The position numbers and the translations under genes are program-made. Below, in pieces: positions 2,749 to 52,044 of a DNA stretch of 64,000 nt; the stretch's first letter is position 1, and each line of letters opens with the position of its first letter. The notes under the pieces are model-generated. The model searched no databases. It had not been told where the DNA came from and saw only the letters and a program-made list of their open reading frames with translations. This DNA comes from Hydnum rufescens UP504. Lineage: Eukaryota; Basidiomycota; Agaricomycetes; Cantharellales; Hydnaceae. The stretch is taken from positions 1-64,000 of the forward strand of contig MU129187.1 in the NCBI GenBank assembly GCA_014904985.1, read 5' to 3'.

Positions 2749-3322
2749 CTAAGTATATTCAATGCGACGGTTAGATGGTAATGTCAAGCAGATTATAGCG
2801 ACCGCATACGGGTGGTTGAACGATTGAGTCAGGTAAGAGAGAATCGGCTTCTCCAATAGATAGTCGGCCCTGTTATGCTCTACAATTTTAGAGAATATAC
2901 CCATGATACTCATGATGACATGAGACATGCTTGTATTGTGAAAGTCCCTGCGGACAACATCAGAGATGAGACCGTAAGGGGCGACATAAGGAGAGTGTGC
3001 TGACCTCAATGCCAAATACCGAGCAAGGGGGACCAGTAGTCTGCAGGATATTAATCGGTTGAGAAGGAAGGGGCTTTGAGGCCTATTCAAACATGAAGTC
3101 CGTAGGCGCTAGTCTCCGTTCCACCACAGACAATAAAACCCACTTGCGCATCAGCATGTCCCTCACGTACAATGACGCATCGCTCTTCAAGAAATATTGT
3201 CGAGACGTAGGATTGTGAGAGCAGAATCGCAGCACTAGGATCTCAAAATTGTCACAAGTCTCAGATGCTAAATGACTAAACCGGGAAATTAAAGATTGCA
3301 CAAAGATAGTGGGTACGAACAT
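2749..3322 (-). pseudogene. Unrecognised gene relic, P1 paralogue
   Basis: Two minus-strand frames encode a segment clearly related to 9582-10222. Both copies share a core of the form 'SRQYFLK..A..YV+D.L..KWV', preceded by 'FxSHNxxSRQYF' and followed by a 'TD.xF' motif. Conservation at protein level between diverged copies suggests a once-coding sequence. The family is unknown to me. Frames break between the two halves, so this is either a multi-exon gene or a decayed copy. A further shared segment ('GDDAKVV', 'LPGLCRL.H.DSY') lies downstream near 2640-2700, outside the long frames. Confidence 0.35.
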
Positions 3323-5861: not shown

Positions 5862-8800
5862 TAGTGTTGCCGAAGACTTGACCTGAAGTCGGCTTAAGTC
5901 CGGAGTCAGTCCGCTTTGGGTCGAGTCAAGTCAAATCCTTTGATTACCAATCTTTGGGCTTGACTTGACTTGACTGGGGCTTGAGTTCGACTTGGGGTGT
6001 AGTTAGGTAAACCAATATGTACATAGATATAATCCTTGGGGGACACTATCCTGTGTGCCACACAGGTAGGGTATTAAGGGCCCCATTGGCAGGCGGTAAA
6101 TCACCGGAAAAAAAAATGAATACAATTTGAATTCCGTGTCTTTTCCCCCATCCTATGTCAACCTCCAGGAAGCGCTCAAGTGATGAGACTCAATCTGGCA
6201 CCCGCAAGGTTCTCTGTATCGATCCTCAGCTGAATCTAGAGCTTGCATCAGCAACAGCAAAGACAGCCATGCCATTGGGCATACCTGGGCATGATCTTGG
6301 GGAGTTGCTAGATGTACCCAGAACTGCCGAAACTGAGCATGAAGTTGTAATGCCCCCACAACTCAAAACACCTGTGCCATCACGACGTCGCCGACATCAG
6401 CCAAGCACTGCCTCGCCTCAAGCCATTCGGAATTCACCCATCATTCGCTCCCTCACAAAAAAGCTGAAAAGGGGTACCCTAAGACTACCGACATTGATCA
6501 TTTTTTTGAAAGATATGAATCCGAGAAGGGAGGTTGAGGGGGGGCAAAGTGTAAATCTTGCAAGTACGTCTGTCCCCTAATTCTAGGAATACAAAAAATC
6601 TTGATTGTTCAACAGATCTCTCTTTTCACAATCAAATGGCATGAAGCCCGATGATGGCCGTACTTGGGTTTATCAGAATTCAGGCACGGGGACACTCCGT
6701 ACTCACATTGAGAAATACCATGCGGATGAGTATCTCGAGGCATGCCAGACACATGGCTGGAAGATTGGGATTCAATCTCTCTGCGAAAAACAGAAACTGG
6801 TGAAGGGCCCTAACAGAAGGGGCACATTCACAACAGAAGGACTCATTCAGCATCTTGTCCGTTGGATAGTGGCAGATGATCAAGTGCGTCAGTGACTCAA
6901 ATTTAATGTATATCCAATTTAACACAGCTCCTATTTTGAGTCTCTAAATGTAGTCGAATGTCCCGAGTTTCGAGAGCTCCTCCTGTATGTGAACGAGAGT
7001 CTTGCTGACAAAGATATACCCCACCGTACAACCATCCGAAACATCGTTGTCAAGATGTGGAGTGAAGAATTTTCAAGGCTGAAATGCGAGATGGCAGTAG
7101 GAATCAAACCAACTATTTATATCACCACATGCCCCTACTTATTATCACTTAAGACCAGTTTAGGGAAAATATCGTTTACTGCCGACATATGGACGGACAG
7201 CCGACTTCGCCCTTTCTTAGCTATCACTGCTCATTGGATACAACGCCGAGAAGACCATACACTAGCTCTTCGAGCTGATCTCATAGCCTTCCACTATCTG
7301 CCAGGAAGCCATGATGGAAAATCTCTATGTACCGCTGCGATGAAAATGCTCGAACGTGCTCACGTAATAAACAAGGTGAACTTAGAGTATGATCCACCCG
7401 CTCCGTTGGCTGATATCTAGTATTTCAAGATCGGTTGGTGGACACTCGATAATGCATCAAACAATAATACCTTCATGGTTGAGCTTGAAAAGGTATTGAG
7501 TGGGGCGGGTGTCGTGTTCTCTTCGGAAAATAATAGAGTCCGGTGCGTGGAACTCGTCTGGTTTGCACCAAACCATTCCTTACTGCTACATGTCACGGCG
7601 ACTAGATGCTTCGCCCATGTCATTAATATTGCTGTTCAGCATGTACTCGCGCTCCTGAAGACGGCACCTGAGGGTGACATCATGGCCCGGCTGCATGGAC
7701 TTGTTAACGCAATCCGAACATCCAGTGACCGTCGTGTGGCATTCCTGGATACCGTACGACAAGGAAATGCCTCGAAACTATTCCAGCCACCCGTCCCTGA
7801 AGTAGAATTGCTTCGAGAGGTCGAGACAAGGTGGGACTCGGCACATGGTATGTTAAGAACAACAATACCCGCACGGCCAGTAAGTGCTCCTTTTCAAAAG
7901 GACAGTCTAATACTGATTTTTTTTTGAGGCCATCGAGGCCATGATGATACAGAAAAAATATCGTGAAATACGGAGCAAGAACTTGACCGATGAGCAGTGG
8001 ACCATGGCCCAGAAGATTCTGGATATCTTAGATGTACGTTGGTGTCCCCTGACCATTCCATGGCCTATCCGTACCACATACCAATCGTCTCACTGCTTTG
8101 GAATAGTATCCACACTTGTTCCAGCACCTAATGACCGGCGAGGCCACCCCTACCCTCAGTAGTGCCTTACCCGCCTTCCAGTGCCTTCAAGATCGCTGGG
8201 AGGACCATGCAGGAAAACACCCTGACATGGCAAAACACATATTAGGAGGAATGGAACGGTTGGATAAGTACCACGAAAAGGCAGGAAGGACGCGCGCTTA
8301 TGTGATAGCCTTAGGTAAGTAAATCTTCACATTCCGCCGACCATCAAGCTTATGTCCATCTATATCCTCTTAGTTCTCAATCCAACCATCAAACTATCAT
8401 TCATACGAAAGCATTGGTCCCCAATAGAACAAGAAATGGCCGAGATATGGATCAAGGATGAGGTAAGCATTGTACCACCACAACGTCGGTGGTGGCTCTT
8501 ACCTGTGGTACAATCTAGCTTCAAAAGTATCGAGTGGATAGCCCTATGAATTTGGGCACAACACCACTCACCAAGCTTTCCGACTCTGCCCGTGTAAAGC
8601 TTGGTCTTATTGACGTGGATGATGACCTTGACGGTGAAGAAATCAGTGTGGATGATGAGTACTCTGCGTATATCGGTAGTTCGACACGTCGGATTCAAGC
8701 CACGCAACCCGTCCTTACATTCTGGCAGGTCTGCCCTTTTCGTTCAACTTTTGGTTCTATTATCCAAATATATTTTGAGCACTCGTCTGTATAGGAACAT

Positions 8801-9311
8801 GAGCATACCTACCCAACGTGGTTCCGAATGGCATTAGATTATCTACCTATTCAAGCATCATCCGTTCCGTGCGAGCGGGTCTTTTCTTCAAGCTCGGAAA
8901 CCATGACAAAAAGACGAAACCGCCTGAAGCCCGACGTTATGGAGGCTCTTCAAATGCTTAAATTTCGGCTTAAGAAGGACCGACTAAATTTCACGAAAGA
9001 TTGGGAGACTCCGATCACCGATATGACAGTCGACCCGGACAACAGTGACGTGCTTGGCGAAGTCTTAAGTACCCAGTCGACAGAATTAGACAGTATGCTG
9101 GACCGTCTTTTGGGGGAAGAAGATTAGAGCTCTTAACCGACTTAACATTATGTACATAAAGAGTATGCCGAGTCTTCTTCAAGTCAACTCTGAGTCCAAG
9201 TCAAATCCGAAATATGACTTGACTTCGGACATAAGTCAAGTCTCACGGAAATCTCGCCAAGTCGCCCGAAGTCGAGTCCAAGTCAGTTCAAGTCAAGTCG
9301 CGGCAACACTA
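5862..9311 (+). mobile_element. Complete hAT DNA transposon, copy 1
   Basis: The element starts TAGTGTTGCCG (5862-5872) and ends with its exact reverse complement CGGCAACACTA (9301-9311). It is flanked by a perfect 8-bp target duplication ATTGACGC at 5854-5861 and 9312-9319, the hallmark of the hAT superfamily. Both ends carry dense subterminal AAGTC/GACTT repeats (about 5875-6000 and 9175-9300), probable transposase binding sites. The internal gene has a BED zinc finger, a hAT catalytic core and a hAT dimerisation domain. The matching P1 sequence near 2415 is an unoccupied site. Total length is 3,450 bp. Confidence 0.93.
6155..9127 (+). pseudogene. hAT transposase (BED finger + DDE core + C-terminal dimerisation), copy 1
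   Basis: Multi-exon transposase for cut-and-paste transposition. The N-terminus starts at ATG 6155. A BED finger has C-x2-C at 6550-6561, an intron 6564-6615, then TWVYQNSGTGTLR and H-x4-H. The core has 'FTADIWTD' near 7180-7200 (catalytic Asp), 'WWTLDNASNNNTFM' near 7440 and 'RCFAHVIN' near 7600. 'LNPTIKLSFIRKHW' lies near 8380, and 'LPIQASSVPCERVFSSSSET' (8840-8900) is the hAT dimerisation signature. Several GT..AG introns are evident (a T-run near 7920 lies in one). The only clear frame break is at a G7 run (6538-6544), just before the BED cysteines, so the copy may be nearly functional, or that base may be a sequencing error. Confidence 0.85.
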
Positions 9312-11657: not shown

Positions 11658-13553
11658 TGCTCATGGATACAACGCCGAGAAGACCATACACTAGCTCTTC
11701 GAGCTGATCTCATAGCCTTCCACTATCTGCCAGGAAGCCATGATGGAAAATCTCTATGTACCGCTGCGATGAAAATGCTCGAACGTGCTCACGTAATAAA
11801 CAAGGTGAACTTAGAGTATGATCCACCCGCTCCGTTGGCTGATATCTAGTATTTCAAGATCGGTTGGTGACACTCGATAATGCATCAAACAATAATACCT
11901 CATGGTTGAGCTTGAAAAGGTATTGAGTGGGGCGGGTGTCGTGTTCTCTTCGGAAAATAATAGAGTCCGGTGCGTGGAACTCGTCTGGTTTGCACCAAAC
12001 CATTCCTTACTGCTACATGTCACGGCGACTAGATGCTTCGCCCATGTCATTAATATTGCTGTTCAGCATGTACTCGCGCTCCTGAAGACGGCACCTGAGG
12101 GTGACATCATGGCCCGGCTGCATGGACTTGTTAACGCAATCCGAACATCCAGTGACCGTCGTGTGGCATTCCTGGATACCGTACGACAAGGAAATGCCTC
12201 GAAACTATTCCAGCCACCCGTCCCTGAAGTAGAATTGCTTCGAGAGGTCGAGACAAGGTGGGACTCGGCACATGGTATGTTAAGAACAACAATACCCGCA
12301 CGGCCAGTAAGTGCTCCTTTTCAAAAGGACAGTCTAATACTGATTTTTTTTGAGGCCATCGAGGCCATGATGATACAGAAAAAATATCGTGAAATACGGA
12401 GCAAGAACTTGACCGATGAGCAGTGGACCATGGCCCAGAAGATTCTGGATATCTTAGATGTACGTTGGTGTCCCCTGACCATTCCATGGCCTATCCGTAC
12501 CACATACCAATCGTCTCACTGCTTTGGAATAGTATCCACACTTGTTCCAGCACCTAATGACCGGCGAGGCCACCCCTACCCTCAGTAGTGCCTTACCCGC
12601 CTTCCAGTGCCTTCAAGATCGCTGGGAGGACCATGCAGGAAAACACCCTGACATGGCAAAACACATATTAGGAGGAATGGAACGGTTGGATAAGTACCAC
12701 GAAAAGGCAGGAAGGACGCGCGCTTATGTGATAGCCTTAGGTAAGTAAATCTTCACATTCCGCCGACCATCAAGCTTATGTCCATCTATATCCTCTTAGT
12801 TCTCAATCCAACCATCAAACTATCATTCATACGAAAGCATTGGTCCCCAATAGAACAAGAAATGGCCGAGATATGGATCAAGGATGAGGTAAGCATTGTA
12901 CCACCACAACGTCGGTGGTGGCTCTTACCTGTGGTACAATCTAGCTTCAAAAGTATCGAGTGGATAGCCCTATGAATTTGGGCACAACACCACTCACCAA
13001 GCTTTCCGACTCTGCCCGTGTAAAGCTTGGTCTTATTGATGTGGATGATGACCTTGACGGTGAAGAAATCAGTGTGGATGATGAGTACTCTGCGTATATC
13101 GGTAGTTCGACACGTCGGATTCAAGCCACGCAACCCGTCCTTACATTCTGGCAGGTCTGCCCTTTTCGTTCAACTTTTGGTTCTATTATCCAAATATATT
13201 TTGAGCACTCGTCTGTATAGGAACATGAGCATACCTACCCAACGTGGTTCCGAATGGCATTAGATTATCTACCTATTCAAGCATCATCCGTTCCGTGCGA
13301 GCGGGTCTTTTCTTCAAGCTCGGAAACCATGACAAAAAGACAAAACCGCCTGAAGCCCGACGTTATGGAGGCTCTTCAAATGCTTAAATTTCGGCTTAAG
13401 AAGGACCGACTAAATTTCACGAAAGATTGGGAGACTCCGATCACCGATATGACAGTCGACCCGGACAACAGTGACGTGCTTGGCGAAGTCTTAAGTACCC
13501 AGTCGACAGAATTAGACAGTATGCTGGACCGTCTTTTGGGGGAAGAAGATTAG
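11658..13553 (+). pseudogene. hAT transposase, copy 2 (5'-incomplete)
   Basis: Starts inside the catalytic core ('HGWIQRRED' region, with one base missing against copy 1) and runs through 'RCFAHVIN', 'ETRWDSAHGML', 'LNPTIKLSFIRKHW' and the dimerisation motif 'LPIQASSVPCERVFSSSSET' at about 13265-13330, to the same stop as copy 1. Single-base deletions relative to copy 1 near 11662, 11868 and 11900 break the frame. All lie within about 240 bp of the assembly gap, which suggests low-quality sequence rather than biology. The BED finger is absent from the visible part. Confidence 0.8.
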
Positions 13554-29270: not shown

Positions 29271-32200
29271 CTGGTGCCCTCAGAGTCCACCTTGCCCGTC
29301 AGAACGAGTCTCCAGCTGATCGTGAGGTTCAACTTACCCGTGCACGCGAGCGTGCGAGAGTAAGAAGAGCTTTACAACATGAACAGTCTGTGCCATCGCA
29401 AGCCTCCCGCCCTCTGCCTCCTGCTTCTTCCCATTCATGATTTCGCCTTCTTACACCTCAGCGAATTACTGCTGCCTGGTGTCCTCATCCTTGCTGCCAC
29501 TGTGGTGCTCTTCTCCTAGAGGCCGAGGCCACCACTTGGTGCTGCAAGGGCGGCACGAAGGTTTTGCCGCGTCTCCCGCGTCTCCCTCCACGCATCCAGG
29601 CCCTCATTGATTCCTCACCTGCTGCCATGTCTGACCATTCTCAAGAACTCAACTACCTATTCAATTTCAGTGTGATAGGTGTATCCGAGGGCTTCTCCGA
29701 CTATCAAGGTAGCTGCCTTTTTGTTTGGTATCTTCCTGATTATTTTATAGTTATTTTTTTTAAATCTAATAGGTGGCTCCTACTGGCTGGCAATGTCAGG
29801 CCGCACCTACCACCGCATGTTTCCAACAGAGAGACCAGAACACCCGACTCATTGGTTCCTATATGATCCTGCCGGTCAAGCAAGAGCGGCTCAAAACCAT
29901 CATGTCCCTATTTCCATGGTTGATGCTGTGCGACTTGACATACAACAGTACAATCCACTATTACGTAGTTATACTAATTTTACTATGTTCCATCCTGCGG
30001 TGGAACATGCATACATTGAGCTCACTGATGCAGCCCCTGCGGCATCGGAGATTGCTGCTTTATATCATATTGGGAATGCACCGCGACCAAATGCACGTCA
30101 GTTATTTGTGCAGCGCGCTGCCGACACCACACCTACAAAAGTACCTATACTACACCCACTATATGAGCCATTACAATATCCTTTACTATTCCCTCATGCC
30201 ACATGTGGCTGGGGTTCTAATATGCGTAAACAATTTACTCAGCGTGCATACTATAAAGTGCGACTGCTCACAGAACCGCGTTTCAGCGCCTTGGGGCGTC
30301 TCGGTTGCGAATGGTCATGTGATATGTATTCGCGTGTCGAAGATGAAGTTCTTGAGTTCATCAAAAAAGGAAAACACGCAGAGTCGGATCGTTTTCGCAA
30401 TGATGAAACCAACGAGGATGATGATGGTGATGATGACAGTTTCACGCTTCCTGCGAGCTTCACCGGATCTCCCAAGTACTACTCCGACAAGGTAGCCGAC
30501 ACTCTCGCACTCACACGCCAGAAGGGCAAACCTGATCTCATGATCACGGTGATGTGTAATCCAAACTGGCAAGAGATAAGGGCCCAGCTGAGACTTGGTC
30601 AGTCTGCTGTCGAAGTGTCACATATAACAAACCGTGTGTTCAAGGTGTCAATTCGGGTGCATTCAGTGTTCGCGCTTAACCTTTCTCACCCCTTGCATCA
30701 ATAGGTGCGACTGCAAGCACTATTGGCTGAGATCAAGAAGCTCCTTGGGATACAGTACCATGTATATGTCATTGAATTCCAGAAACGTGGTCTACCTCAT
30801 GCACACATCATCGTGAAGGTACTGCTACCTTTCTTTGACCCATCGCCCTACTGCTTACTAATACAAGCAACATCCAGCTACGGAATGAGATGTGCCTTGA
30901 AGATATTGATTCTGTTATCTCAGCACAGGTTCCAGAGACCCAAGGTCGTCTTCGTGATTTGGTTCTCACACATATGGTGCATAGTTCCACCCACCTTGAT
31001 GGAACGTCATACAGTCGTTGCAATAAGAAAGGTCGCTGTGTGTACAACTATCCACATCCCCCCAATCTGTACACCAAAATTAACGAGTGCCAACGTGTTG
31101 ACTATCACTGTACCGAGCATGACACTTGGATTGTTCCATATTCTCCCCCCCTCCTACTACTTTGGGATGGTCATATCAACGTTGAAGCTATATTCACGGT
31201 GGACATATTCTTATACATATATAAATATTTATTCAAAGGCCCTGACCATGCATCATTCTCTATCTCGAGTGAGGACTCCAATGCCATTGACGATTACATC
31301 TGTGCCCGCTACATATCAACCCCTGAAGCTGTCTGGCGGATTTTTTCGTTCAACATTACTCGACAATATCCATCTGTACATTGTCTGTCTGTGCACGAGC
31401 AAGGTCTGAATCGGCATCAGTACCCTTCGAATTGTTCCACAATTTCTCAGGCCTCATCTCTCATATGGTACCTTAATCGGCCCCTCAATCCAATTTTCGA
31501 CGACATATTGTACACGACATTCTATGAACAATTTGTACACTGTCCCTACCCAGATAGTGAAGACAATACGATGGATGGTGTGGAGTGGTGGGATGAGGCG
31601 GCCATTTTACCTGACATGCCGCATAAAATTGTAAAGCATCGCAGTCGCAGTGAGAAGGTTGCACGCCTGCAATCTGTTTGTCCTGGCCATGGCGAAGTAT
31701 TCTATATTCGCTCCCTCCTTTTCCACCAATCTGCACGCTCCTTTGAGGATCTTCGCACGGTCAATGGTCACACATACCCTACATTTCAACGTGCGGCACA
31801 GGCAGCTGGCTTATTTGAAGAGTCAAGCGAGGGCCTCCTGGCAATGGAAGATGCTATATCCCAGTACAAGTCACCTGCCCAACTCCGATTTCTTTTTGTC
31901 ATGCTTATACTCGAAGGTTCTCCTGCTGTTGCCATCTGGGAATGTTTTGCCAATGACCTTTCATGAGATTTTGGTGGTAACGTGAATGGTTCAATGTCGG
32001 TGATCGCTCAAGAACTCGCCCTTGAGGCCATCGAGCAACTCCTTCAGGAGCGCGGTTGCTCCACAACTCACTTTTCACTACCGGCTGTTCATATCCATTC
32101 TGCTGAGATAGATGCTGAAAGGCACTATTTTGCTCCCCAATCCCATACTTTGCATGAATTCTCTTTGCGGAGCTTAACTTTGATGAACGCTGAACAGCAT

Positions 32201-33624
32201 GCAACCTATCACGCATTCCATTCCATCATTTCCACTTCTACAACACACCCTCAACTGTGTTTCCTTACTGGAAAGGCCGGTCGCGGAAAGACCTTTGTTG
32301 TCAAAGCTATTATTGCGGATGCTCGGTTGCGGGGTGACATTGTGGTCATAGTGGGTACTACTGCATTATCCGTATCTCACATTGACTGGGGACAGACTGC
32401 CCATAGCATGTTCCGCCTTCCTGTAACGTCTGACAACACAAACATCATATCCTCCATTGCTGATGAAGGGCCTCGCGCAGACTATTTGCGCGCAGCTTCA
32501 TTCTTAGTTTGGGATGAACTCCCAATGGCGAATGTCGCTGTTTTGGAGGCAGTTGACATTCTCATGCAGCGTCTCATGGGATCTTCATTACCTTTTGGTG
32601 GAAAAACTCTCATTGGGATTGGTGACTTTCGCCAGGTTGCCCCTGTGGTCCCAGGTGGAGGCCGCACCGCATCATATCTTGCATCAATATTATCTTCCCC
32701 TCTTTGGCACAAATTTCACATTTTCCAACTTATGCAAGCTATCCGAAATGCCTCCGATCCTGCCTATGCAGACTTTGTTGATGCGATTGGAGAGGATGTC
32801 AGTGGAGAGCGCATCAAATTGGATCAGATTATCCCATGGACCAACGACTTTGACTGCATTCAACACAAACTGTTTCCGGACAGTGTCCTCAGTGATCCAG
32901 AAGCCTGTGTTCGGCGTGCATTTCTCACTCCGCTTAACTTTGATGTTGATCAGTTTAACGCTATGATTCTTGACCGGTTACCAGGCCCAATATGTATGTC
33001 TCTAACGTTCTAAAACCTTTCTTGATGTGTCTAATTTTTTTTCATAATATCATCATAGCGACACATCACAGCTTTGACTCCATAGTAGAGGCCGACTCGG
33101 ATCCCGGTAGTAATACAGGGGGTCCTGAGCATTCGGAAGATTTTCTCGTGCAGATCACGTCATGAGAGGCACCAAATCATGATCTTCACCTCAAGGTTGG
33201 TGCAATCTGTAGTCTGATGCAGAACCTATCAGTTGCAAATGGACTGGTGAAAAACCAACGAGTCATCATTGTCGCCATGCGATCATGGTACATTGAAGTG
33301 CGACTCTTAGACCACGGACATCGCCGAAATATTACTCATTGCATCCCTCGGATCATTTTCGACTTCCATCCACCTTTCGTCTCCTACACAGTCCGCCGAA
33401 AACAATTCCCTCTGCGACTCGCATACTCCACTACTTTTAATAGTTGCCAAGGCCTGACATTTGATTTTGTTGTATTAGATGGAAGGAATGATGTATTTGC
33501 ACACGGGCAATTATACACTGCCATATCATGGGTGAGGTCTCGCAATGATGTACTCCTATAGATTGGTAGAGATAAATTGGATGTAGCAAATGTGGTGTAC
33601 CGACGGCTGCTATTACCATTCTAA
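29271..33624 (+). pseudogene. RepHel: HUH replication initiator + PIF1-like helicase
   Basis: Catalyses rolling-circle transposition of Helitrons. The reading frame follows introns 29709-29772, 30645-30704, 30819-30877 and 32994-33058. A Cys-rich N-terminus ('WCPHPCCHCGALLLEAEATT') leads to the Helitron_like_N region ('YWLAMSGRTYHRMFP'). The Rep domain has the HUH motif H-A-H at 30798-30806 ('RGLPHAHIIVK') and a two-Tyr-type 'YIYKYLFKG' near 31215. The helicase has Walker A 'GKAGRGKT' near 32270, 'WDELPMA', 'GDFRQ' and a C-terminal 'AYSTTFNSCQGLTFDFVVLD'. In-frame stops at 29438, 31964 and 33163 are TGA where Arg CGA is expected; one TAG at 33559 breaks the C-terminus. The copy is nearly full length but inactive unless these stops are read through. 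Confidence 0.88.
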
Positions 33625-40310: not shown

Positions 40311-43300
40311 TCCAGGGTCTTTCGGTATTCCCTGAGCCACGCAAAGGCATTCTGTAATGCGGGTTCTGACTCAAACATGTCATGCTCCAGTCTGTATCCC
40401 TTCCATCGTACTAGATATTCCCTCCTCCTTGTCCGTGTGTTATATCAGTGGCCTACCAGCTTCTCTACTTCATACTCCTCTTCAGTGGATAGCTCTCTTA
40501 GCTCAGGGAGCTTAGCCCTTCCCTCTTCTTGTACATCTTGGTAGTACTTGGTTAGGTGCTGAATATTCATTATGGGATGCATTTTATACTTGGGTGGGAG
40601 ATGCAAGCAATAGACTATGGGATTTATCTTCTCCAATATAGTGAAAGGTCCAATATGCCTTTGGACTAGTTTCCTTCCTGTTCCTTGGACATTGATCAAC
40701 TCCAGAGAGTGAGGGTTCACTAGAATCTCATCTCCTTCCTTGAATTTGTCATCATGCCTCTTCTTATCATAGGCTCTGGCCTGCCTGGCTTGGGCCTTCA
40801 CTAGAGCATCTTGTGCTTGCGAGTGATGCACTTCCAGTTCATCCATGAAGGTTGATGCAGACGTGCTATTGAGCTCGAACTGCTCAATTCCTCTGGATAC
40901 TGGGTCTATCACTATGGCTTGCATTCAAGGAGAGTATCCGTGCAATAGGAAGAAGGGAGAGTATCCTGTAGACGAGTGAGGTGTGGCATTGTGGGCCATT
41001 GCTAGCATTCTGAGCCACTGGGCCCAAGAACTGTGATTCCCAGCTGTGTAGGTGTGTAGGGCTACTTCTAGCAAGTCATTTGCTTTCTCCATCTGCCCAT
41101 CGGTTTGGGGATGGTGCGAGGTGGACAGCATCAAATCTAAATCCAAGTGCTTGGCTACTGAAGCCCAGAAGGATTTGGCCCACCTAGCATCCCGATCTGC
41201 GATCATCTGGTGAGGGATGCTGTATTTTAAAATGACAGTTTGCATGAACAACTTGGTAAATCTGTCTTGCTTCAGGTGCAATGTGGTTGGGACATACTGG
41301 ATGAACTTGGTGAGTTTATCCACAATTACCAGGACTGCATTGTGTCCCTCTGACTTTGGGAGACCTGTGATCAGGTCTAGGGTCACTACTTCAAATGGAA
41401 GGAGGGGGATCGCGTGTGGGCATAACTTCCCTATTGGACCACACTTATCGGATTTGGTCTTCTGGCAAATGTCATAGGTTTTTGTGAACTCCACAACATC
41501 TGCCCACATCTTCAGCCAGTAGAACCTAGCTGCCAGCTTGTGAAACAGCCTTGAGGATCCTGCATGCACAGACTCCCACAGTGACTCATGGGACTCCATG
41601 AGGATTCTACATACTTCTGGTTTTGGCATGCAGAGTCTGGCAACCCAGTCCGCATCACGAAATATCAGGAGGCCTTCATCTGATTTATAGAATCATTGAG
41701 CTGCTGAGTGCTCTGATTTGCCAGCAATGGCCTCTTTCCAAGGCTGTTTGAAGCTGGGGTCGCTTTGGTATCCTTTGATGAAGGCTTCTATTCAGGAGGG
41801 ACTCACTGACATGTTGAGTGCCTGTGGCATTCATTCCTGGTTGGGTGGGTTTTCTGTCCTGTTTCTCTGTGGTACAGCTTCCGTTGTTCTTCCAGCTGCT
41901 GTTGGGGTGGTCCCCGCGGTCTGTTTCTTCATCTGCACTCATGTCAATAGGAATGTGGCTCACTCTGCGGGCTTTCTCTTGACTGCGTCTTCCCAGGCAA
42001 ATATTGGTTGGGATGGGAGCTGGCTGGGCAAGAGTGGGGATTTATCTTCTACAGGTGATTGATGCAGCAGTATCTGTCACAGCCTCGAGAGGGGGTCTAC
42101 ATTTGAGTGTACTATCCCTGCTCAATGTACTATATCCAAACCTGGATACACTGCGAACACTGCCCCCCATGCTGCGAGACACCTGTTGGAATTTTCATAT
42201 GTCCTTGCCCACTGTAGTGCTGTGTGATCCGTGATCACAATGTTTTTCTTGCCCTTGATGAAGGGCTGGAAGCGCACTAGCACTTCCTTCACTCCTAGGG
42301 CTTCCCTTTCTGTTGCCGAGTAGTTTCGTTCCACGGATTTCAAGGACCTGCTCCAGTAGGCGATCACTTGTTCGACATGCACTGTAGTATCTTCCACATC
42401 TGGGGCCCAGGAATCAGAGTTGGGCATGTCATCCATATTCTTTGAAGCTTGATGCGCTAGCTTCAGTATGGGTTCACCTTTGGTGTGCATGTCCAAAATC
42501 CTGTCATGTAGCTTTGTACCCTTTAGATCTTTTACCATTATGGGCTGTACCTGCTGGAGGCTAGCTCCCAATGCTACATCTGAAGCATCAGAGTAAATGT
42601 GATATGGTCTTGAGGGCATGGGATGACTGAGCACTGGGGCAGAAACCAGGCCTTCCTTGACATCTTTGAAAGCCTGTTCCTGATCTGCCCCCCAGTTCCA
42701 TTTTACATCCTTGCACAGAAGCTTGAATAGGGGTGCTGCTCTCTCTGAGTAGTGCAGTATGAAGTGTGAGAAGTACACTGCCATTCCCAAGAACGTTTGA
42801 AGTGTCACTCTATTATGAGGACAGGCTATGTCTATGATGGCTTTGATCTTCTCCTTGTGTGTAGAAAGTCCCAGCCTGGAGACTTTTTGGCCCAGGAGGA
42901 GAATTGATGTGTACATGAAGTGGCACTTCTTTGGCACTAGTGTCAATCCTGCTTCAACACATGCTTGTAGAACCTTATTGAGATGCTCTAGGTGCTCCTT
43001 GTAGGATTTCGAGTATACTACAATATCGTCTATGTACACCAACAAGAAAATCCACAGAAAGGGGGCGAGGATGGATTGCATCATCCTTTGGAAGGTTGAG
43101 GGGCTGTTTCTTAGACTGAAGGGCATCCATTTGAACTGCCAAAGCCCTCTGTGAGAATGAAAGGCCATCTTTTCTTTATCCTCATCCTCCATTTCCATCT
43201 GGTGGAACCTGGCCAGTGCGTTGAGGGTGGATAAGACTTGCAATCTGGATAAGGCTTGCAGGATTTCTGTTTGCTGTGGAATTGGGAACTCATCTGGTAT

Positions 43301-44895
43301 GGTCATAGTGTTGAGTTTCCTGTAATAGACGCAAAATCTGGGCTTCCTGTTTCAGTACACTATGACCACGGGGGCAGCCCAGGGGCTTTTCAAAGGTTCT
43401 ACAACTTCTTGCCAGATCCATTTATCCATTTGCTCATCAATCACTTGTCTCTTTTCTGGTGAAACTCCATACATAGGCATTGAGACTGGGTGAGCTTCCT
43501 CTTTCATATGGATCTTGGCGATTGTTTCCAACATTCCAAGTTGGTTGTTGAATCTGAACACTCTAATGTGCTTTTTGATCAATTCCAGGGTCTTCCTTTT
43601 TATTTCTGGAGGGGTGTCTGGTGCGATGTCCATCAACTCGTCCAGTTTCTTGGAATCGTAAGTCATTGGGTCCCCAGGTTCTGACATTTTCGGACCCCAA
43701 AGCTCGTCAGGGCCATCTGGCTCTGGAGGGATCTCTACCACTTGCAACTTTGCTAGCATCTGATCCAACAGGTCTTGGCCCCCTAGTGATCCGTGGGTGA
43801 TTTTCTGTACCATGCGGGCATAGGCTTTCAACTGTTCAGACTCCTCATCATTCCTGCTACTGTCTAGGTAGCATTCCAGGTTGTGCAGAATGCCTAGTAC
43901 ATTGCCCTTCCTGATCCATTCTGTGGAAGGGGATGTGTTGGCTACAGCTACTGCAGGCTTCTCAGATTTAATCAGCATCAATGGAGCTGCTAGGAAGCAA
44001 CTGTTGTTCATGGGGAGTGTGACTCACTCCATGAACCACTCCTCCCAACCTGTAGTTGGACCTTCTACAGGAACCCTGGTGACCCACCTCGCACAAATCT
44101 TCACATCTGCCGCTGCTCGCAGTAAGTGCATCATGGGAGTTCTGCTTTTCTGTGCATAGCCAGGGTTTCTGGAAGCGGCCAAGTATGCGGCATGATTTCT
44201 TATCTCTGGGGGGTGACAGGGTCAAACTTGGAAATCCTCGGTCAAGGGGGAAGTCAAGTGGGCTGGAATGTTGAACCTTTCCCCTGGCTGGTTGATCAAC
44301 AGGTGTGTTCCTTGTGCCGATCTCAGTATGGATATTTCATAGTTGACCTGGAAATCCTCCCCTAACAGCACTGGGATGTTCATTCCTGGGATCACATAAG
44401 CTTCTTTGATGAATTCCAGCACTCTATCACCTGCCGCGGGCATGAAGATTTGAAGATTTATAAATCCTAAGATCTTCGCCTGATTGGTGAGTTTGAAGAG
44501 GTGAAGCTTCATACCCTTTCACAGTTTTGGCCGATGCTCTAGGGCATTGTAGCAGTCTTCCAAGATTAAGGTGATGTCTGCCCCTGAGTCCAGGCATAAC
44601 TGTATGGGGGAACTTGAGAGTGTCCCTAAATGGCCATTGTGTATGCTTAGTGCTGTAATCCCCAGCACTGACTTTCTGGCAGGCATGGTTCTGGCTTTAT
44701 GACAGTGAATGACCCTCACTGGAGGGGTATCCTGTGTTGTCTCAGGGTGGTGTGAAGCCTCTACTACAGGCAATGACTTCACGGCCATGGCCACGAGTTT
44801 TTGCACTCCTTCCTGCTGTTCATCTTCAGCTGACTCATCAGGTGGTTTCCTAGGTTGCTCCCGGCCTGGACAGCCATCTTCAGTACCTAAGATAG
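37568..44895 (-). pseudogene. Gypsy pol polyprotein, broken only by TGA codons
   Basis: One reading frame runs from about 44895 to a TAG at 37568-37570. Reading it by hand I find 23 in-frame TGA codons, no frameshift and no internal TAA or TAG. Several stand where Arg is expected. Protease: 'LCLDSGADITLI' near 44600. Reverse transcriptase: 'VSPEKRQVIDEQMDKWIWQE', 'MPFSLRNSPSTFQRMM' and 'YIDDIVVYSKS' near 43020. RNase H: 'IYSDASDVALGASL'. Integrase: 'FYWLKMWADVVEF', then D, D and E in 'TLDLITGLP', 'DRDARWAKSFW' and 'TDGQMEKAN'. Chromodomain: 'YLVRWKGY' near 40405, ending near 40315. About 900 further codons to 37568 match no domain I know. Confidence 0.88.
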
Positions 44896-45420
44896 GCCCA
44901 AAAATGAGTCACAGGATGGGCCTAGTTAGGGTTACAAAACCAGGGGCCCCAATGGGACCCCAAAACAATATCAAAAAACATGCAGTAGACTGATTTGGGC
45001 CCCAAATTTGGGTATTTTAGGCCTCTGGGGCCCCAATATTCTTAGGCCTATTGGCCCATTGGGGCCCCATCAAAGTTAGGTGCCCTTTGGCCTCTGGGGC
45101 CCCACTTAGTGAGGAACTTGGTCAAATTTTTCACTAGCCAACTTCAATCCGAAGTAAAGATTCTTTATATCTACCCAAAGTACAGAATGTAGAACCACAA
45201 AATTATGCAGCATGAAACCAGGAGTCTATATATGGCTTTATATCCATCAAGGTGCTGAAATACAAAGGTCACTAAAAACACCCCTTGGGGCCCCAATGAT
45301 CCAAAGCCTGCTTAGGCCCAAATAGTGCCATGTTTTTGGGCCTAACTAGGGCTGATTTTGTGGCTGACCAAGGTGGGCTGCGCATACTGGGGGCTCACCC
45401 GTGTGCTCATCAGGTGGGTT
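44895..45420. repeat. GGGGCCCC-rich spacer
   Basis: Between the Gypsy remnant and the hairpin array the octamer GGGGCCCC or a one-base variant recurs (for example 44942, 45026, 45062, 45095, 45285), usually followed by AA. No gene recognised. It may be the eroded gag/leader part of the Gypsy element or an unrelated repeat. Confidence 0.4.
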
Positions 45421-45438
45421 TTCATGGGGGGAAGGAAC

Positions 45439-46693
45439 CTAGAACAATAAATAATAATACATTAGTAAAAAAAGAAAACAGAGGTGCCAAAAGAGCAGCT
45501 TCTGCTGCTCTTTTGGCACTGATGCAATTAGACATACCTAATATTACCACACACCTGCTGAAGTGGGTGTGTGGTACACAGGTTCACCAATTGTCATTTC
45601 GGGGGGCAGGCCCTTTGGGCTTGGGTGGCTGTGCATACTGGGGGCTTGCCCATGTGCTCATCAGGTGGGTTTTCACAGAGGAAAGGAGCCTAGAACAACA
45701 AATAATAATCCATTAGTAAAAAAAAAGAAAATAAAGGTGCCAAAAGAGCAGCTTCTGCTGCTCTTTTGGCACTGGTGGGATGAGACGTACCTAATATTAC
45801 CACACACCCACCAAAGCAGGTGTGTGGTACTGATTTTGCACCCTGGTCGCATGCTTTGTACTTGGTTTTGCATATGGAAGGGTGTCCATTGGGGTGGGTC
45901 ATCATTTCAGGAGGCTTGATTTGAATCCTACAATGATAGTGTATGTTAGTAAAAAAATTTGAAGCGACACAAAAGGAGCAGCTTGTGCTGCTCCTTTTGC
46001 ATTGCTGTGCATATAGAAATTTAACAAAAATTTACCTTGTTGTACCACACACCCACTTCTGTGGGTGTGTGGTACTTGTTTGTGCCACGCGTTTGGTTTT
46101 GGTCTGGGGGTTGGCAGGGGTTGTAGGCAGGTGAAAATCTAGGAATAATGTGTTAGTAACAGAAAAAAATAAAAAATAAAGCCACACAGCAGGAGCAGCA
46201 TACACTGCTCCCTTTGTGCGATTATACTTATCTTGAAATTACCACACACCTGCCAAAGTGGGTGTGTGGTTTGTCTGGGGTCCCTGGGCCTTGTTGTGCA
46301 TCCTTGTTTCTGGGTTTCGTTTTGTAAGTTGCGTTTGCAACTCTCTGTTGGCAGGTGCATTGTCATTTCCAATGGGGGGGGTTCGTTTGGCATGTGGTTC
46401 GGGTGAGAGGCTAGAATAAAGAATTATTAGTTAAGAAATTAAAAGCAATGCAAAAAGAGCAGCTTTCACTGCTCTTTTTGTGTGGCTGCATCTATTAGGG
46501 GGGAGGAGACTCACCTTAAATATACCACACCTGCCACGGCAGGTGTGGTTCCTGGCCCAACTCATTGGGTGGCCTGTCATTGGTTTTGATCTGGAGTAAT
46601 AAAGGCTATGTTAGTATAAAGATTCACACCAGCACAAAAAGAGTAGCTTGTGCTACTCTTTTGCACTATTGTATTTACTGAGACAAAAATTAC
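45439..46693 (-). repeat. Exon-intron-hairpin module array, left arm (six modules)
   Basis: On the minus strand six intron-like segments follow one another: 46591-46693, 46411-46514, 46139-46227, 45928-46035, 45690-45790 and 45439-45537. Each has a GT donor (GTATGT, GTACGT, GTGAGT or weaker), a CTAAC/CTAAT branch motif and a YAG acceptor, and each encloses a hairpin of the AAAAGAGCAGC/GCTGCTCTTTT type. Just before each donor lies a second hairpin (CCACACACC.../...GGTGTGTGG). The spacers between introns (about 125-185 nt) can encode related Pro-rich peptides ('HENPPDEH', 'CENPPDEH'). CpG-poor. No protein family recognised. Confidence 0.8.
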
Positions 46694-46769
46694 CTTATGA
46701 CACACCCACATCAGCGGGTGTGTGGTCCTGTGCTTGTGGTCGTGCGGTCATGGTCATGTGGTCGTGGTC

Positions 46770-46776
46770 ATGTGCT

Positions 46777-46856
<80 letters not shown>

Positions 46857-46900
46857 TGCTGTTGCTGCTGTTGCTGTTGCTGTTGTGTTGTGGTTGTGCA
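46770..46900. repeat. Expanded (CTG/GCT)n trinucleotide repeat
   Basis: About 35-40 interrupted GCT/GTT triplets, giving open frames of poly-Leu, poly-Cys or poly-Ala (plus) and poly-Gln or poly-Ala (minus) that are almost certainly not genes. It lies in the left arm of the large inverted repeat; the right arm (47600-47660) lacks the expansion. Confidence 0.92.
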
Positions 46901-46939
46901 GTTGCATTTCTGTTGCTGGGTGTGGTTGTGTAGTTGCAA

Positions 46940-47586
46940 ATTCAATGCCAGCAATTGCCAATACTCAAGAAGTGCCCAAGCACTGGCACTGCAAGCACAG
47001 CACACAATAGTACCCATGTATATTTAAAATAAATACTATATAATAAATATTTGTCCAGGAAAACCCAAAGAAGGCAATGATAATGAGTCAGAACCCAATA
47101 AGGCATGAGATGGCAAATTGCAGAGTGGATTAGGCCACTTCTATGCATCAGAATTGGTCCAAATTTAAATATAGTAGTGTTATATATACACTCTACATGG
47201 GTGATTGATTATTTCAGACAATCCTTGCATTTTTCAATTTTTCACACCTTCAATTCCCTAAATAGGGAATTGAAGGCATGAAAAATTGAAAAATCCAAGG
47301 ATCATCCAAGATAATCACTCACCCATATAGAGTGTATATATAACACTACTATATTTAAATTTGGGCCAATTCTGATGCGTAGAAGTGGCCCAATCCACTC
47401 TGTAATTAGCTATCTCATGCCTTATTGAGCTCTGACTCATTACCATCATCTTCTTCAGGTTTTCCTGGACAAATTTTCATTATATAGTATTTATTTTAAA
47501 TATACATGCTTGGTGCTATTGTGTACTGTGCTCCCAGTGCCAGTGCTTGGGCGCTTCTTGAGTATCAGCAATTGCTGGCATTGAAT
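46940..47586. repeat. Central palindrome, arms of about 320 bp
   Basis: 46940-47260 and 47263-47586 are reverse complements with few mismatches. The symmetry centre is AA at 47261-47262 within TTCAATTCCCTAAATAGGGA. The outermost match is 'attcaatgccagcaattgc'. Outside it the two module arrays face away from each other in mirror order, so the palindrome is the core of an inverted repeat of about 3.4 kb. No gene recognised inside; AT-rich blocks include TATATATA-type sequence. Confidence 0.92.
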
Positions 47587-47684
47587 CTGCATCTTGCTTC
47601 CTATCTCCACAACCACAACAAGCAACCACCCAAAAAGGCAAGCACACAACCACACACCCACTGCTGTGGGTGTGTGGTCACAAG

Positions 47685-48747
47685 GTGAGTGTTTTTTCTA
47701 GTAGATACAATGGTGCAAAAAGAGCAGTGAAAGCTGCTCTTTTTGCGCTGCTTTGGAACATTTTACTAACATCTCTTTATTTATTTTAGATTGAGGCCTT
47801 GTCCAATGCATGACGAGAGCCCAAACAGCCATGCAACATATGGAAACACAACACAGCAACACGACATCTGGCAATGCAATACAGAAATGCAACACATGAC
47901 AGTGTGACACAGCAATGTGCCAAACAGCAACACACCAAATGGCAACGCACCAAACGAAGACATGACACATGGTAATGTGACACATGGCAATGCAACCTAT
48001 GGCAACGCACCAAACAAGGATGCAACCATGCCAAATGAGGCCCCAGGAACCACACACCTGCCATGGCAGGTGTGTGGTACTATATAATGTGAGTCCCCCC
48101 CCAGTAACTACAGGCATGCAAAAAGAGCAGCAAAAGCTGCTCTTTTTGTGTGGTCTTTATCTTAACTAACATACAATCTTATATTCTAGGTCATTGCTTC
48201 CCACATGAATGAATACCCATGTGAGAACCCCTGTAACCCTGCCCATCAACACCTGAACGATGGGCCCCATACAAACTGCTGCACCCATGAGCCAGAGTAC
48301 AGCCCCAGTACCCCACACCCGCAGCAGCGGGTGAGGGGTACTGCAAGGTAAGGTTTATTTTTTTATTTTTTATTCTTTATGCTTGTGGTGCAAAAAGAGC
48401 AGTGTAAGCTGCTCTTTTTGTGCTGCTTTAGAATTTTTTTTTACTGACACACTTTATTCTATATTGGAGCCCGCCCAACGCATGACAATAACCCGCGAAA
48501 CAATGAACAACATGGTACATGGCAACACGACATGGCAATGCGACACGGCAACATGCCAACAATGTGACATATGGCGCCACACCAAATAAGGGCCTGGAAT
48601 CACACACCCACCATGGTGGGTGTGTGGTTCTATATAAGGTAAGTCCCCACCCCCCTCACTAGCTACAGCCAAGCAAAAAGAGCAGCTTTCGCTGCTCTTT
48701 TTGTGTGGCCCTTATTTCCTAACTAATTTAAAAATAATATTTTGTAG
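47685..48747 (+). repeat. Exon-intron-hairpin module array, right arm (four modules)
   Basis: Intron-like segments on the plus strand: 47685-47789 (GTGAGT...TACTAAC...TTTAG), 48089-48189 (GTGAGT...TAACTAAC...CTAG), 48348 to about 48470 (GTAAGG...CTGAC; acceptor AG mutated to AT) and 48639-48747 (GTAAGT...CTAACTAA...GTAG). Each contains GCAAAAAGAGCAG.../...CTGCTCTTTTTGC (for example 47715-47727 with 47734-47746, loop 6 nt). Each is preceded within 10-15 nt by a CCACACACC/GGTGTGTGG hairpin. The intervening exon-like parts are related to each other ('NEYPCENPCNPAHQ' and 'NEYRQRTPHNPAYQ'), so whole modules were copied. Confidence 0.82.
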
Positions 48748-48920
48748 GTTTCAACTGCCCTTGCAAATGAATACCGACAAAGAACCCCCCATAACCCTGC
48801 CTATCAACCCCCAAATGATGGGGGACCCACACGAACCACCATGCGTACGAGCCAGCATATGTATGCACCAGCATATGGATGAGCCAGCATGCATGGCCCC
48901 AGTATCCTACACCTGCAGTG

Positions 48921-50466
48921 TTGGAGGGAAAAATCCCTACCACATAGAGTTCCATTTCAGCGTTGAATTTTCTGATGAACAAATTAAAAATGTACCAATA
49001 TGTCGTTCCAATATCAAGCCTTTCGTCTGTTCATGGATGAGCATGAATTCCATATGCCTGAAAAGATGTAAATGGAATGCTCATTTCCTTGTACATGAGT
49101 CAATCTCCCGGGGTCTTCAACAGGCCACAGGGACTGTATTCATTTATGCCCTACCATAAGCCATGATATGGTGGACCCGGCAATTCAACTTGCCCTTCTG
49201 TATATCGTCTTGAATTCTCCTTCAATCTGCTCATACGGATCTTGCTGCCTTAAGGGCGATCCTAACGAATGGTGATTATGTAATACAATGGATTACACAC
49301 CCGGGCCTTCATTCCTACTTGCGGATGCATTACATAATCAAATAGGGGCAAATGCGGCACTCTCAAGGAGTATTCGTTGAATTTCTCTGTCAGTTTTGAT
49401 CGGATCGGCTCGGAAAAGTAGCGCCCAGAAAGATACGATTCATACCTATCTGACGATACCAAGTACGAGTCAATCCGATGAAAACTGCACGTTCTAGAAC
49501 GATTTTACTATGGAATCCATGCTCTTAAGGAGTATTTTCCGCTTTTCGAAGTCAATTCGTATTCGATCGACTCGTAAATATAGCGCCCTGAAAGCTGTGA
49601 TCAATACCTATCGAATGATACCGATTAGGTGTTCATCGGATCAGAACTAAGGCTTCTGGAACGATTTCACCTGCTCATTCATAATAAGAAGGTGTATTTT
49701 TCGAATTTCTCCGTCAGTTTTGATCGGATTTGCATGAAACGACCGTGCCTAGAAAGGTATTGAAAATGCCCATCCAGCGATATGAAGGGCGTCACGAACG
49801 AAGAAGAACTCGGTGTTCTACATATGAATTTCCCCCTTGTCTCAGGAGAACATCATTCCCCCTTCCAATTTTCAAATATCGAATATTGTCTGGCAGCCTT
49901 ATATCCGAAGGATAGGACGTTCAGGACGACTCATTCCACCATTCCTCAAGGGAATCTGTCCAAAAGGGAAGGAGAAATAGTCATTTTGTGCTCTATCCTA
50001 TCCCCAGACTTGTAAATTGAATATCTCTGTCAGTTTTGAAGCTTTTGACTTGATTCCTTTTTCTACATATTTCCCCTATCCTCCTGCTTCCGTCGGATAT
50101 TGGATCTCATAGCCGGGTTGTATATTAAGCAAATTGTGTTGAAAATTCCATTGTCTTCCCCCTCCCCAGTCTGAAGCACTGAAGTATTGCTGCTGGATTC
50201 CCGGGCGAATTCCATCTGAGCACATTGCTACTACTACACTTTGTCTAAGGCCACAAGACTAGGACCTTGGAGTGTGGGATTTGTGGCATAATTTCCCCTT
50301 TTATTCATCTGCTTGGGCAACTACTGCTGACAGCGGATTATCTTCTATCCTAAAGACCCTCCTACACTCGGACCTGAACATTCGGATTATTTTGGTGGCC
50401 CCCGTTCTTCGTTCTCGATTCCATATCGCGGACTGTGGCAGAGATCTCCCCTTTTTCTTCTGCTTA
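48921..50466. mobile_element. Insertion splitting a module hairpin (CAGTG duplication)
   Basis: The left half of an exon-end hairpin (CTACACCTG, before 48916) and its right half (GGTGTGGGG, after 50471) are separated by 1,546 bp with CAGTG at both edges (48916-48920 and 50467-50471). Overlapping the edges are TGTTGGAGGG and CTTACA, which would suit an LTR, but then no target duplication remains, so the class is open. The inside contains three 160-bp repeat units (49363-49845) and no recognisable gene. Confidence 0.5.
49363..49845 (+). repeat. 160-bp tandem repeat, three units
   Basis: Units start near 49363, 49523 and 49684. Each begins like 'aaggagtatt', then 'tttctcygtcagttttgatc', then 'gcgccc.gaaag' or 'gtgcctagaaag' and 'tacctatc..atgatacc'. 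A fourth partial unit lies near 50015. The family recurs in reverse orientation at 52950-53345. Confidence 0.7.
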
Positions 50467-50486
50467 CAGTGGGTGTGGGGTACAAG

Positions 50487-50800
50487 GTATGTGTTATGTT
50501 TTTTATTTTATTTCTTAGTCTTGTGGTGCAAAAAGAGCAGCATAAGCTGCTCTTTTTGCATTGCATTAATGTTGTACTAACATTGAATTCCTTATTTCTA
50601 TAGATCCTTGACCAGAATCTGCATGAACCCCCTCTGAACCCACCAAATGACATGCTGGGAACGAAAACCACGAATGAGCCCCCATGAATGAAAACCCACT
50701 CCCTTGAGGGAGTGCCCAAATGGAACTGGCCCCAACTGGGGCGAATGAACCCCACCTGCTGCAGCGGGTGTGGTGGGTATATGCAGGTGTGTGACTGGCA
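50487..50800 (+). repeat. Fifth right-arm module after the insertion
   Basis: Intron-like 50487-50603 (GTATGT...TACTAAC...TATAG) with hairpin GCAAAAAGAGCAGC/GCTGCTCTTTTTGC at about 50527-50558. It is followed by an exon-like stretch rich in Pro/Asn codons ('NLHEPPLNPPNDM') and a hairpin ACCTGCTGCAGCGGGTGTGG near 50750. It is the continuation of the right arm beyond 48921-50466. Confidence 0.72.
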
Positions 50801-50834
50801 GGAACCATGCCCCCCCTGTGGTGGCAGACCCCAG

Positions 50835-51045
50835 GGGGGGGGGATAATATATATATAGCATGTATATAATTATAGTAGTAATAATAATAATAATAAATAA
50901 ATATATAATCTACCACAGCCATGGATTGGCTGAAATGAATTGGAATGGCTGTATTTTGGCTGTATTTCAGCCATACTGTCTGGGACCTATTAGGTACCAT
51001 TTTCTGCCCCAAAAATGGTACCTAATTAGGTCCCCAATTTGACTG
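50835..51045. repeat. AT microsatellite and 11-bp hairpin
   Basis: (TA)n and (TAA)n runs at about 50847-50905 are followed near 50993-51025 by a GGTACCATTTT/AAAATGGTACC hairpin, with further matching GGACCTA/TAGGTCC outside. No gene. Confidence 0.7.
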
Positions 51046-51059
51046 ACCAGCCTGGGTTC

Positions 51060-51860
51060 ACGCAAGAGATGGCATGGATAATGGTGACTGCAGATGAAAC
51101 TGTGGTGTGACGCTACCTGATGCTTTGAGGGAGGGCAACAGGATGATGTACAGGCAAGGTAACACTTGAAAAAAGAGCTAGTTCATGCAAGAGATGGCAT
51201 GGATAGTGGCAACTGCAGACAGAACTGTGGTGTGACACTACCCGATGCTTTGAGAGAGGGTGATGAGATGGTGTATGAGCAAGATAACAGTTGAAAAAAA
51301 AAGAGCTGGTTTGCTCAAGAGATGGCACAGATAGTGGCGACTGCAGACAAAACTGTGGTGTGACACTACCCAATGCTTTGAGAGAGGGTGACGAGATGAT
51401 GTATGGGTGAGATAAAAAAGAGCTGGTTTGCACAAGAAGTGGCACAGATAGTGGTGACTGTGGACAAAACCACAGTGACACTACCCAGTGCCTTGAGAGA
51501 GGGTGATGAGGTGATGTGTGAGTGAGATAATGCTCGGAAAAAGAGCTAGTTTGTGTAATAAATAGCATGGATAGTGGTGACTGCAGTTGAAACTGCAGTG
51601 TGACACTACCCAGTGCCTTGAGGAGGGTGATGAGGTGACATGTGAGTGAGATAATGCTTGAACAAACAGAGGATCCACACAAGAGATGGCATGGATAGTG
51701 GTGACTGCAAAACTGTGGTGTGACACTACCTGGTGCCTTGAGAGAGGGTGACAAGGTGATGGGTGAGTGAGATAATGTTCAAAAACAACAGAGGATCTGT
51801 GTAAGAACACAGATAGTGGCAACTGCAGTCAAAACTGCAGTGTGACACTACCTGGTATAG
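51060..51860. repeat. Minisatellite of about 120 bp, seven units
   Basis: The unit contains 'gagatggcatggatagtgg', 'actgcag..aaaactg', 'gtgtgacactaccygatgc' and 'ttgagagagggtgatgag'. The 'gtgtgac.ctacc' block recurs near 51105, 51229, 51357, 51475, 51599, 51719 and 51839. Minus-strand open frames across it (51113-51754 and others) are repeat translations, not genes. One more unit lies at 53465-53590. Confidence 0.88.
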
Positions 51861-52044
51861 AAGAAGGGTTGGGAGCTCCGATGACTGTCAAATCAAAATA
51901 TGGTTCAGCCAGTGTGTAGATGGGAGACTGTGTTTCTGTTTATTCAGATGGGTTGGTTCACTTCAATGGTTGATCACTCTCTGCAAGATATGTATGTGTT
52001 TATTGGAAAATGGAATGTGATATGGACTAGGAATAGTCAATGAT

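Follow-up and report, generated by a model that had tools for sequence, protein, structure and literature searches.

Arrays of hairpin-bearing, intron-like modules form the interior of an abundant palindromic TIR transposon in Hydnum rufescens

The first 64,000 nucleotides of contig MU129187.1 of the agaricomycete Hydnum rufescens UP504 (hereafter the window) contain, at positions 45439–50800, a mirror-arranged array of intron-like segments that each enclose a hairpin. This array is the inside of one decayed copy of an abundant palindromic DNA transposon with terminal inverted repeats (TIRs). We consider it likely that the element is non-autonomous and that its two arms are divergent, spliced and probably non-coding transcription units. 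The window belongs to a 63.2-Mb assembly of 539 contigs, and the pattern searches described below are genome-wide. A protein beside one copy of the element matches proteins of strain UP504, a member of the Cantharellales, at up to 89% along its full length and 97% along half of it; the strain is mentioned once in the main text of its genome paper (PMC7550596).

Eleven intron-like segments of 93–122 nucleotides (nt) make up the array, six on the minus strand (45439–46693) and five on the plus strand (47685–50603), where the original prediction, made from the letters of the window, had placed them. The segments share a donor, a CTAAC/CTAAT-type branch motif and a YAG acceptor. The predicted loss of one acceptor was found at 48469, in the ninth segment (plus strand), but the GT donors ascribed to all segments include one AT, in segment 46139–46231 on the minus strand. 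An inner hairpin is present in all eleven segments; it had been called perfect throughout and is so, over at least 10 bp, in ten, the one near 46201 being imperfect. A second, outer hairpin had been proposed before every donor and lies directly 5′ of it in ten segments, whereas the last plus-strand module retains the right half only, its outer hairpin being interrupted by a 1.55-kb insert resembling a long terminal repeat (LTR). The inner pattern GAGCAG..CTGCTC matches the window 10 times against 0.05 expected from shuffles, and the outer pattern ACACACC..GGTGTGT 8 times against 0. A covariance model trained on ten of the eleven modules recovers the eleventh at 67 bits, while the rest of the window scores at most 60 bits, and RNA folding, applied to four modules, gave z scores from −5.3 to −8.5. 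The modules have multiplied as whole units and mirror each other around a central palindrome (46889–47654), in agreement with what had been proposed; its arms are 84% alike and its core 89%. The exons reveal no recognisable gene, and none of 16 weak Rfam matches in window 44800–51900 reaches its gathering score.

The palindrome, centred near 47261, presumably holds a divergent promoter. Numbering from the left, the first module of the left arm is segment 6 (46591–46693; inner hairpin 46637–46662 in a GAGTAGC form, outer hairpin 46697–46726). It is followed outward by segment 5 (46411–46514; inner 46451–46480, outer 46524–46549), segment 4 with the AT donor and the imperfect inner hairpin (46139–46231; outer 46241–46270), segment 3 (45928–46035; inner 45970–45999 in the AAAAGGAGCAGC form, outer 46042–46075), segment 2 (45690–45790; inner 45737–45772, outer 45798–45829) and segment 1 (45439–45537; inner 45484–45519, outer 45545–45576), all on the minus strand. 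The right arm, on the plus strand, begins with segment 7 (47685–47789; inner 47715–47746, outer 47649–47678) and continues with segment 8 (48089–48189; inner 48119–48148, outer 48049–48078), segment 9 with the mutated acceptor (48348–48469; inner 48391–48420, outer 48310–48339), segment 10 (48639–48747; inner 48674–48703, whose loop has the opposite orientation to that of its C2 counterpart, outer 48599–48628) and segment 11 (50487–50603; inner 50527–50560), which has the right half of the outer hairpin immediately 5′. The LTR-like insert TGTTGGAGGG..CTGCTTACA (48919–50468) lies within that hairpin and is foreign to the element. An AT-rich stretch with AATAAATAAATA at 50840–50910 is a presumed 3′ end signal, and the minus-strand TIR CAGGCTGGTCAGTCA (51040–51054) ends the window copy on the right at 51054. 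No left end of its own was found for the window copy; the end of another, related TIR element, CACCTTGGTCAGCCA (45361–45375, minus strand), adjoins the array at 45375. Two of the five copies of the LTR-like insert with read flanks, that in the window and one at C5:526.4–527.7 kb, sit in outer hairpins, and at C35:188890 (L060) half of an outer hairpin is joined to a transposon end; the hairpins may be insertion targets.

Modules of this kind occur throughout the genome. The outer hairpin with exact outer letters was found at 3038 sites, the inner hairpin followed by CTAAC at 854 (446+408) and an outer half joined to AAGGTRAGT, which represents the unspliced junction, at 1030 (508+522); the control gave 0 in each case. 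The use of a covariance model, proposed with the original prediction as a check, was also productive: in 15 sources, model R1, built from ten window modules, returned 120 matches that score 80 bits or more, and 110 of these lie beyond the training modules. Arrays recur elsewhere with the same order and spacing. A distant subfamily scores 36–81 bits with R1 (four matches in L085), and its stems read GGGGCAGC/GCTGCCCC and CCACACCCCAGC/GCTGGGGTGTGG; because these letters differ, the stems have been altered on both sides over long times. A pattern for processed copies, limited to the single exon start GTCATNNC, gave no match. Since the unspliced junction occurs 1030 times and the spliced one, by this one pattern, never, amplification seemingly takes place at the DNA level.

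Comparison of copies revealed a terminal motif that they share. The 15-base TIR CASSYTGGTCAGTCA has 716 matches in the genome and the reversed pattern 3; one 33-base end pattern occurs 47 times, with different flanks in the 20 cases read. In 17 convergent end pairs, chosen by eye from the first 100 listed TIR places with wider-spaced pairs left out, CASSYTGGTCAGTCA stands in opposite orientation at both ends, and the enclosed element measures 4.4–7 kb when free of nested copies. Target-site duplications flank nine of the 17 pairs: four of 8 bp and four of 7 bp are exact and one of 7 bp has a single mismatch, the 7-bp cases being our reading of the flanks. Modules are known to be present in 12 of the pairs, as assigned from the inner-hairpin and junction match lists or from fetched sequence, and seven of these 12 have a duplication; three of the 17 (C17:333520, C17:345935 and C20:23181) lie beyond the end of the module list. 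The copy at C5:102535–108997 interrupts an intron of another, older copy and is flanked on both sides by TTACTGTT, which the related uninterrupted intron contains once. The TIRs, the duplications and this nested insertion therefore identify a DNA transposon of the cut-and-paste type.

These ends also bear on whether the hairpin intron is itself the mobile unit, spreading into genes in the manner of an introner, as the original prediction had hinted along with a likeness to double-hairpin elements. Hundreds of similar introns are present in the genome, and a stable secondary structure has been predicted for introner-like elements of fungi, as described in passages of PMC8469720. However, the duplications flank the whole element, so that the mobile unit is a TIR transposon of about 5 kb that encloses the modules, and conservation of the intron extends to the exon ends. 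Moreover, at each of eight sites that we picked from the match lists as lacking a listed neighbour, at least two modules are present, and therefore none of these is a lone intron, although ordinary genes were not surveyed. Because the inserted unit is not the intron, we rejected the introner as mobile unit and regard such an origin as very improbable.

Further analysis of the internal layout revealed an outward orientation of the introns. Good splice signals occur on exactly one strand in 119 of 173 inner hairpins, on both in 1 and on neither in 53, so that donor, branch and acceptor are ordered and spaced as in spliceosomal introns in 119 of 173, the signals having been chosen as the best within a window. 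In these 119 introns, the median distance from donor to hairpin core is 37 nt (quartiles 34–40), from core to branch 26 nt (25–27) and from branch to acceptor end 24 nt (23–25). Across 13 copies, whose intervals and centres we set, the 78 introns with a clear orientation are all directed outward from the palindrome and none towards it; 32 are ambiguous. Hairpins less than 120 bases from a stretch end were dropped from these counts. Near the ends of the copies read there is an AT-rich stretch with AATAAA-like words. The arms are 74–98% alike in the 14 palindromes listed, whereas non-sister copies are mostly 69–80% alike and sisters as much as 97%, which indicates, for non-sisters only, that the arms of one copy arise or are corrected together. 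A 2.7-kb palindrome at C10:416777–419516 (L003/L004), with arms 97.7% identical and one hairpin intron per arm, is a small relative of the element. L076 and L081 share the same gene-like sequence beside the first module, at the usual position of the palindrome centre.

Stems and splice signals have been conserved between copies. In old copies, for which we pooled three pairs with two copies each occurring in two of them, the inner stem differs at 6 of 260 sites (about 2%) against about 25% in the surroundings, and the outer stem at 19 of 240 (7 without CpG-type changes). The donor differs at 9 of 85 sites, the branch at 13 of 70 and the acceptor at 3 of 30, compared with 145 of 568 in the remainder of the intron (127 without CpG-type changes) and 361 of 1389 in the remainder of the exon (274 without); detection by hairpin core and best signal inflates the core and the splice signals in the first copy of each pair. 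In five recent pairs, 25 of 115 inner-loop sites differ, a higher proportion than in either the background (403/5337) or the exon remainder (466/4119).

The pairing record of the stems is less uniform. Across the alignment of ten modules, standard pairs fill 96.9% of the paired cells. Changes on both sides affect 6 of 26 pairs, a number that 0 of 500 shuffles attained (shuffle mean 2.5); further pair types show no such excess (11 versus 9.7; 72 of 500 shuffles). Genuine double changes are AU to GC at alignment positions 101/120, CG to UA at 105/116, and AU to CG at 97/124 and 16/39. The compensatory changes that had been noted in both hairpins are upheld by these cases, but not by the outer series CCCGC/CCCAC/CCTGC. 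Of 68 listed places, 18 were dropped as non-fitting (C5:572694 and C6:1390 were not included and neither fits the parsed form), and in the remaining 50 the inner CpG pair of the outer hairpin is intact in 14 and changed on one side to a wobble in 11 or to A-C in 7. Paired double changes (10) barely exceed mispaired ones (8), and the series is therefore explicable by CpG transitions alone.

Several results weigh against our reading of the element as a mobile unit with spliced, probably non-coding arms. Eight of the 17 end pairs show no duplication, and two (C5:231315 and C16:14367) have no module within the listed inner-hairpin-plus-CTAAC matches. No transposase was found between these ends when KDZ and hAT matches were checked by eye against the 100 end places listed first, on contigs C1–C20. 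KDZ transposase domains are abundant (154 matches, from 150 scored of 584 first-look candidates genome-wide) and 8-bp duplications occur in four of the 17 pairs; the listed KDZ matches are not enclosed by listed ends. Among the in-frame stops listed for the KDZ domains TGA predominates, the outcome expected if CGA underwent CpG decay. On the same side stand the selection and pooling effects given above with the spacing and conservation figures, as well as three counts of mismatch types and the behaviour of the loops. Pairing kept in RNA after insertion predicts more G-U than A-C on the transcript strand. When the closing pair is excluded, counts of G-U and A-C are 2 and 3 in a set of 46 distinct inner hairpins; they are 27 and 35 in 116 inner hairpins, and 27 and 24 in 55 outer hairpins, a further 37 without orientation having been dropped. 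The predicted excess is not seen, so part of the pairing record is of DNA-level origin. With the closing pair included, G-U exceeds A-C by 44 to 23 in 97 inner hairpins (8 to 1 at the closing pair alone in the 46-hairpin set), but CpG decay of the closing pair itself makes U-G. Among 48 loops compared between copies (three hairpins without a core in the partner were dropped), two are exactly inverted (CAAAAG/CTTTTG and CTTTCG/CGAAAG, with flanks 93–95% identical) and three are nearer to the inverted form; such inversion is an event at the DNA level and requires the hairpin as DNA. Hairpins in the 116-hairpin, conservation, loop and spacing sets were located by an exact core, and those in the 46-hairpin set by one exact arm.

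The flipping loops and the lack of a G-U bias suit an alternative in which the element is a palindromic TIR transposon whose hairpins matter as DNA, either as binding sites for transposase or host proteins or as hairpin-forming replication signals, and whose splice-like signals are relics of a captured gene that are no longer spliced. The intactness of 494 of 506 stem pairs in the 46 distinct inner hairpins and the closer likeness of arms than of non-sister copies also agree with it, although sister copies as alike as 97% restrict the latter argument to non-sisters. This alternative is harder to reconcile with signals that keep fixed spacing on one strand, point outward in every clear case and have changed less than their surroundings. 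Loop letters, too, lean towards GNRA on the transcript strand (51 versus 7 of 99 listed), but by distinct loop only 6 versus 4. We consider the alternative unlikely. The evidence for RNA structure is mixed, and we read the copies as decaying neutrally after insertion, through CpG decay and DNA-level palindrome events, while an active lineage keeps stems and splice signals.

The composition of the exons was examined in 79 cases, after introns scoring below 9 had been dropped. Their bases are 33% A, 31% C and 14% T, and 42 of them have no open frame, compared with about 50 in shuffles (49–50). It could be argued that the exons of active copies encode a repetitive protein and that the fetched copies look non-coding through TGA stops created by CpG decay. 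Indeed, 336 of the 460 stops counted over all three frames of the 79 exons are TGA, and two findings that also belong among the counterweights listed above point the same way. Exon frames free of TAA and TAG number 146 against 107 in dinucleotide shuffles (5–95% range 99–118), a shortage of these stops that could equally be explained if exons avoid words resembling branch and acceptor signals. An open reading frame (ORF) above the 95% shuffle value is present in two of the four spliced arms, 188 versus 127 for the L075 plus strand (which includes one doubtful intron call) and 140 versus 111 for the L074 minus strand; the other two fall below it (121 versus 124 and 131 versus 138). In the distant subfamily, neighbouring exons of L084 contain Asp-rich frames, but no homologue was found for frame L084:3616–3843. 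Continuity across junctions also speaks against a protein: a frame is open through both exons at 5 of 46 junctions versus 7 (4–10) when partners are dealt anew, and, ignoring TGA, at 35 versus 36. An encoded protein in active copies therefore appears distinctly unlikely. The exons are probably non-coding, and a coding origin for them is possible.

In the mechanism that we propose, the element would be moved in trans by a cut-and-paste transposase encoded elsewhere. Transcription of each arm would start at the central palindrome, run outward through several exon-intron modules and end in the AT-rich stretch near the terminal repeat. Almost every exon of such a transcript would close with a hairpin a few bases before the donor, and the hairpin of each intron would lie between its donor and its branch point. 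If this intron hairpin were looped out, a donor-branch distance of about 50 nt would remain; pairing between donor and branch point aids splicing of the yeast RPS17B intron, according to a portion of PMC2536676. Our guess is that the outer hairpin keeps the exon end apart from the donor. The arms probably grew by tandem duplication of modules and palindrome formation. It is tempting to speculate further that the element represents a class of transposon that relies on a structured, many-times-spliced non-coding RNA from both palindrome arms and on no protein of its own, with the exon-end hairpin and the intron hairpin flanking each donor as its selected parts; we regard this joint proposal as possible but doubtful.

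By the features tested, the element is a TIR DNA transposon. It shares TIRs, duplications of 7–8 bp and many copies with the non-autonomous elements of the hAT, hAT7 and KDZ/Zisupton families, in which we know of no array of intron modules. Duplications measure 8 bp in Zisupton, usually 8 bp in hAT and 7 bp in rust-fungus hAT7, as given in sections of PMC12730594. By length, the 8-bp duplications would fit hAT and KDZ and the 7-bp ones hAT7. Helitrons are not known to have TIRs or target-site duplications; both are present here, and a Helitron was rejected. Foldback (FB) and Galileo-type elements have long inverted arms of repeated units, as does the present element, but to our knowledge no intron modules. 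Double-hairpin elements of fungal mitochondria resemble the modules in having two hairpins per unit; the present element differs in residing on nuclear contigs, in its splice signals and in being a TIR transposon. Fungal introner-like elements and sister stwintrons are likewise spliceosomal introns that have multiplied and that show internal symmetry or a predicted stable structure, as outlined in parts of PMC8469720 and PMC9860276. These sit singly at new gene positions, whereas the introns described here belong to a larger transposon that has exons of its own, most of which carry a second hairpin at their end. Yeast introns of the RPS17B type, whose splicing is aided by segments that pair downstream of the donor (PMC2536676, in part), are introns of host genes; the modules described here form a transposon array and place a second hairpin in the exon. 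No description of such an intron-module transposon was found in a literature search at title and abstract level, mostly among open-access papers.

Other mobile sequences lie elsewhere in the window. Helitron remnants occupy 29751–33013 on the plus strand, with Helitron_like_N and PIF1 helicase domains in adjacent frames, and pieces of a Gypsy-type retrotransposon pol (reverse transcriptase, RNase H and integrase zinc domain) occupy 40925–44900 on the minus strand. Two hAT dimerisation-domain pieces (8795–8965 and 13221–13391) lie about 4.43 kb apart; an identical hairpin occurs at 9216 and 13642, and together these perhaps represent a duplicated hAT-like element. Directly after the transposon end, a tandem repeat of six or seven units of about 120–128 bp extends over 51068–51852.

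Known links between transposons and introns run from a transposon to a single intron, as in introners; here a transposon is largely built of intron modules, which seem to serve the element. The copies also carry a warning, in that compensatory changes in hairpins can stem from CpG decay and DNA-level palindrome events. If the modules are not spliced, the question becomes what conserves the order of donor, hairpin, branch and acceptor. If they are spliced, one must ask why a transposon without a recognised protein keeps so many splice signals, and the genome would offer an extensive natural collection of hairpin introns in which the influence of donor-proximal structure on splicing could be tested. 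Should the element indeed depend on the RNA of its arms, that natural collection would comprise hundreds to thousands of hairpin introns.

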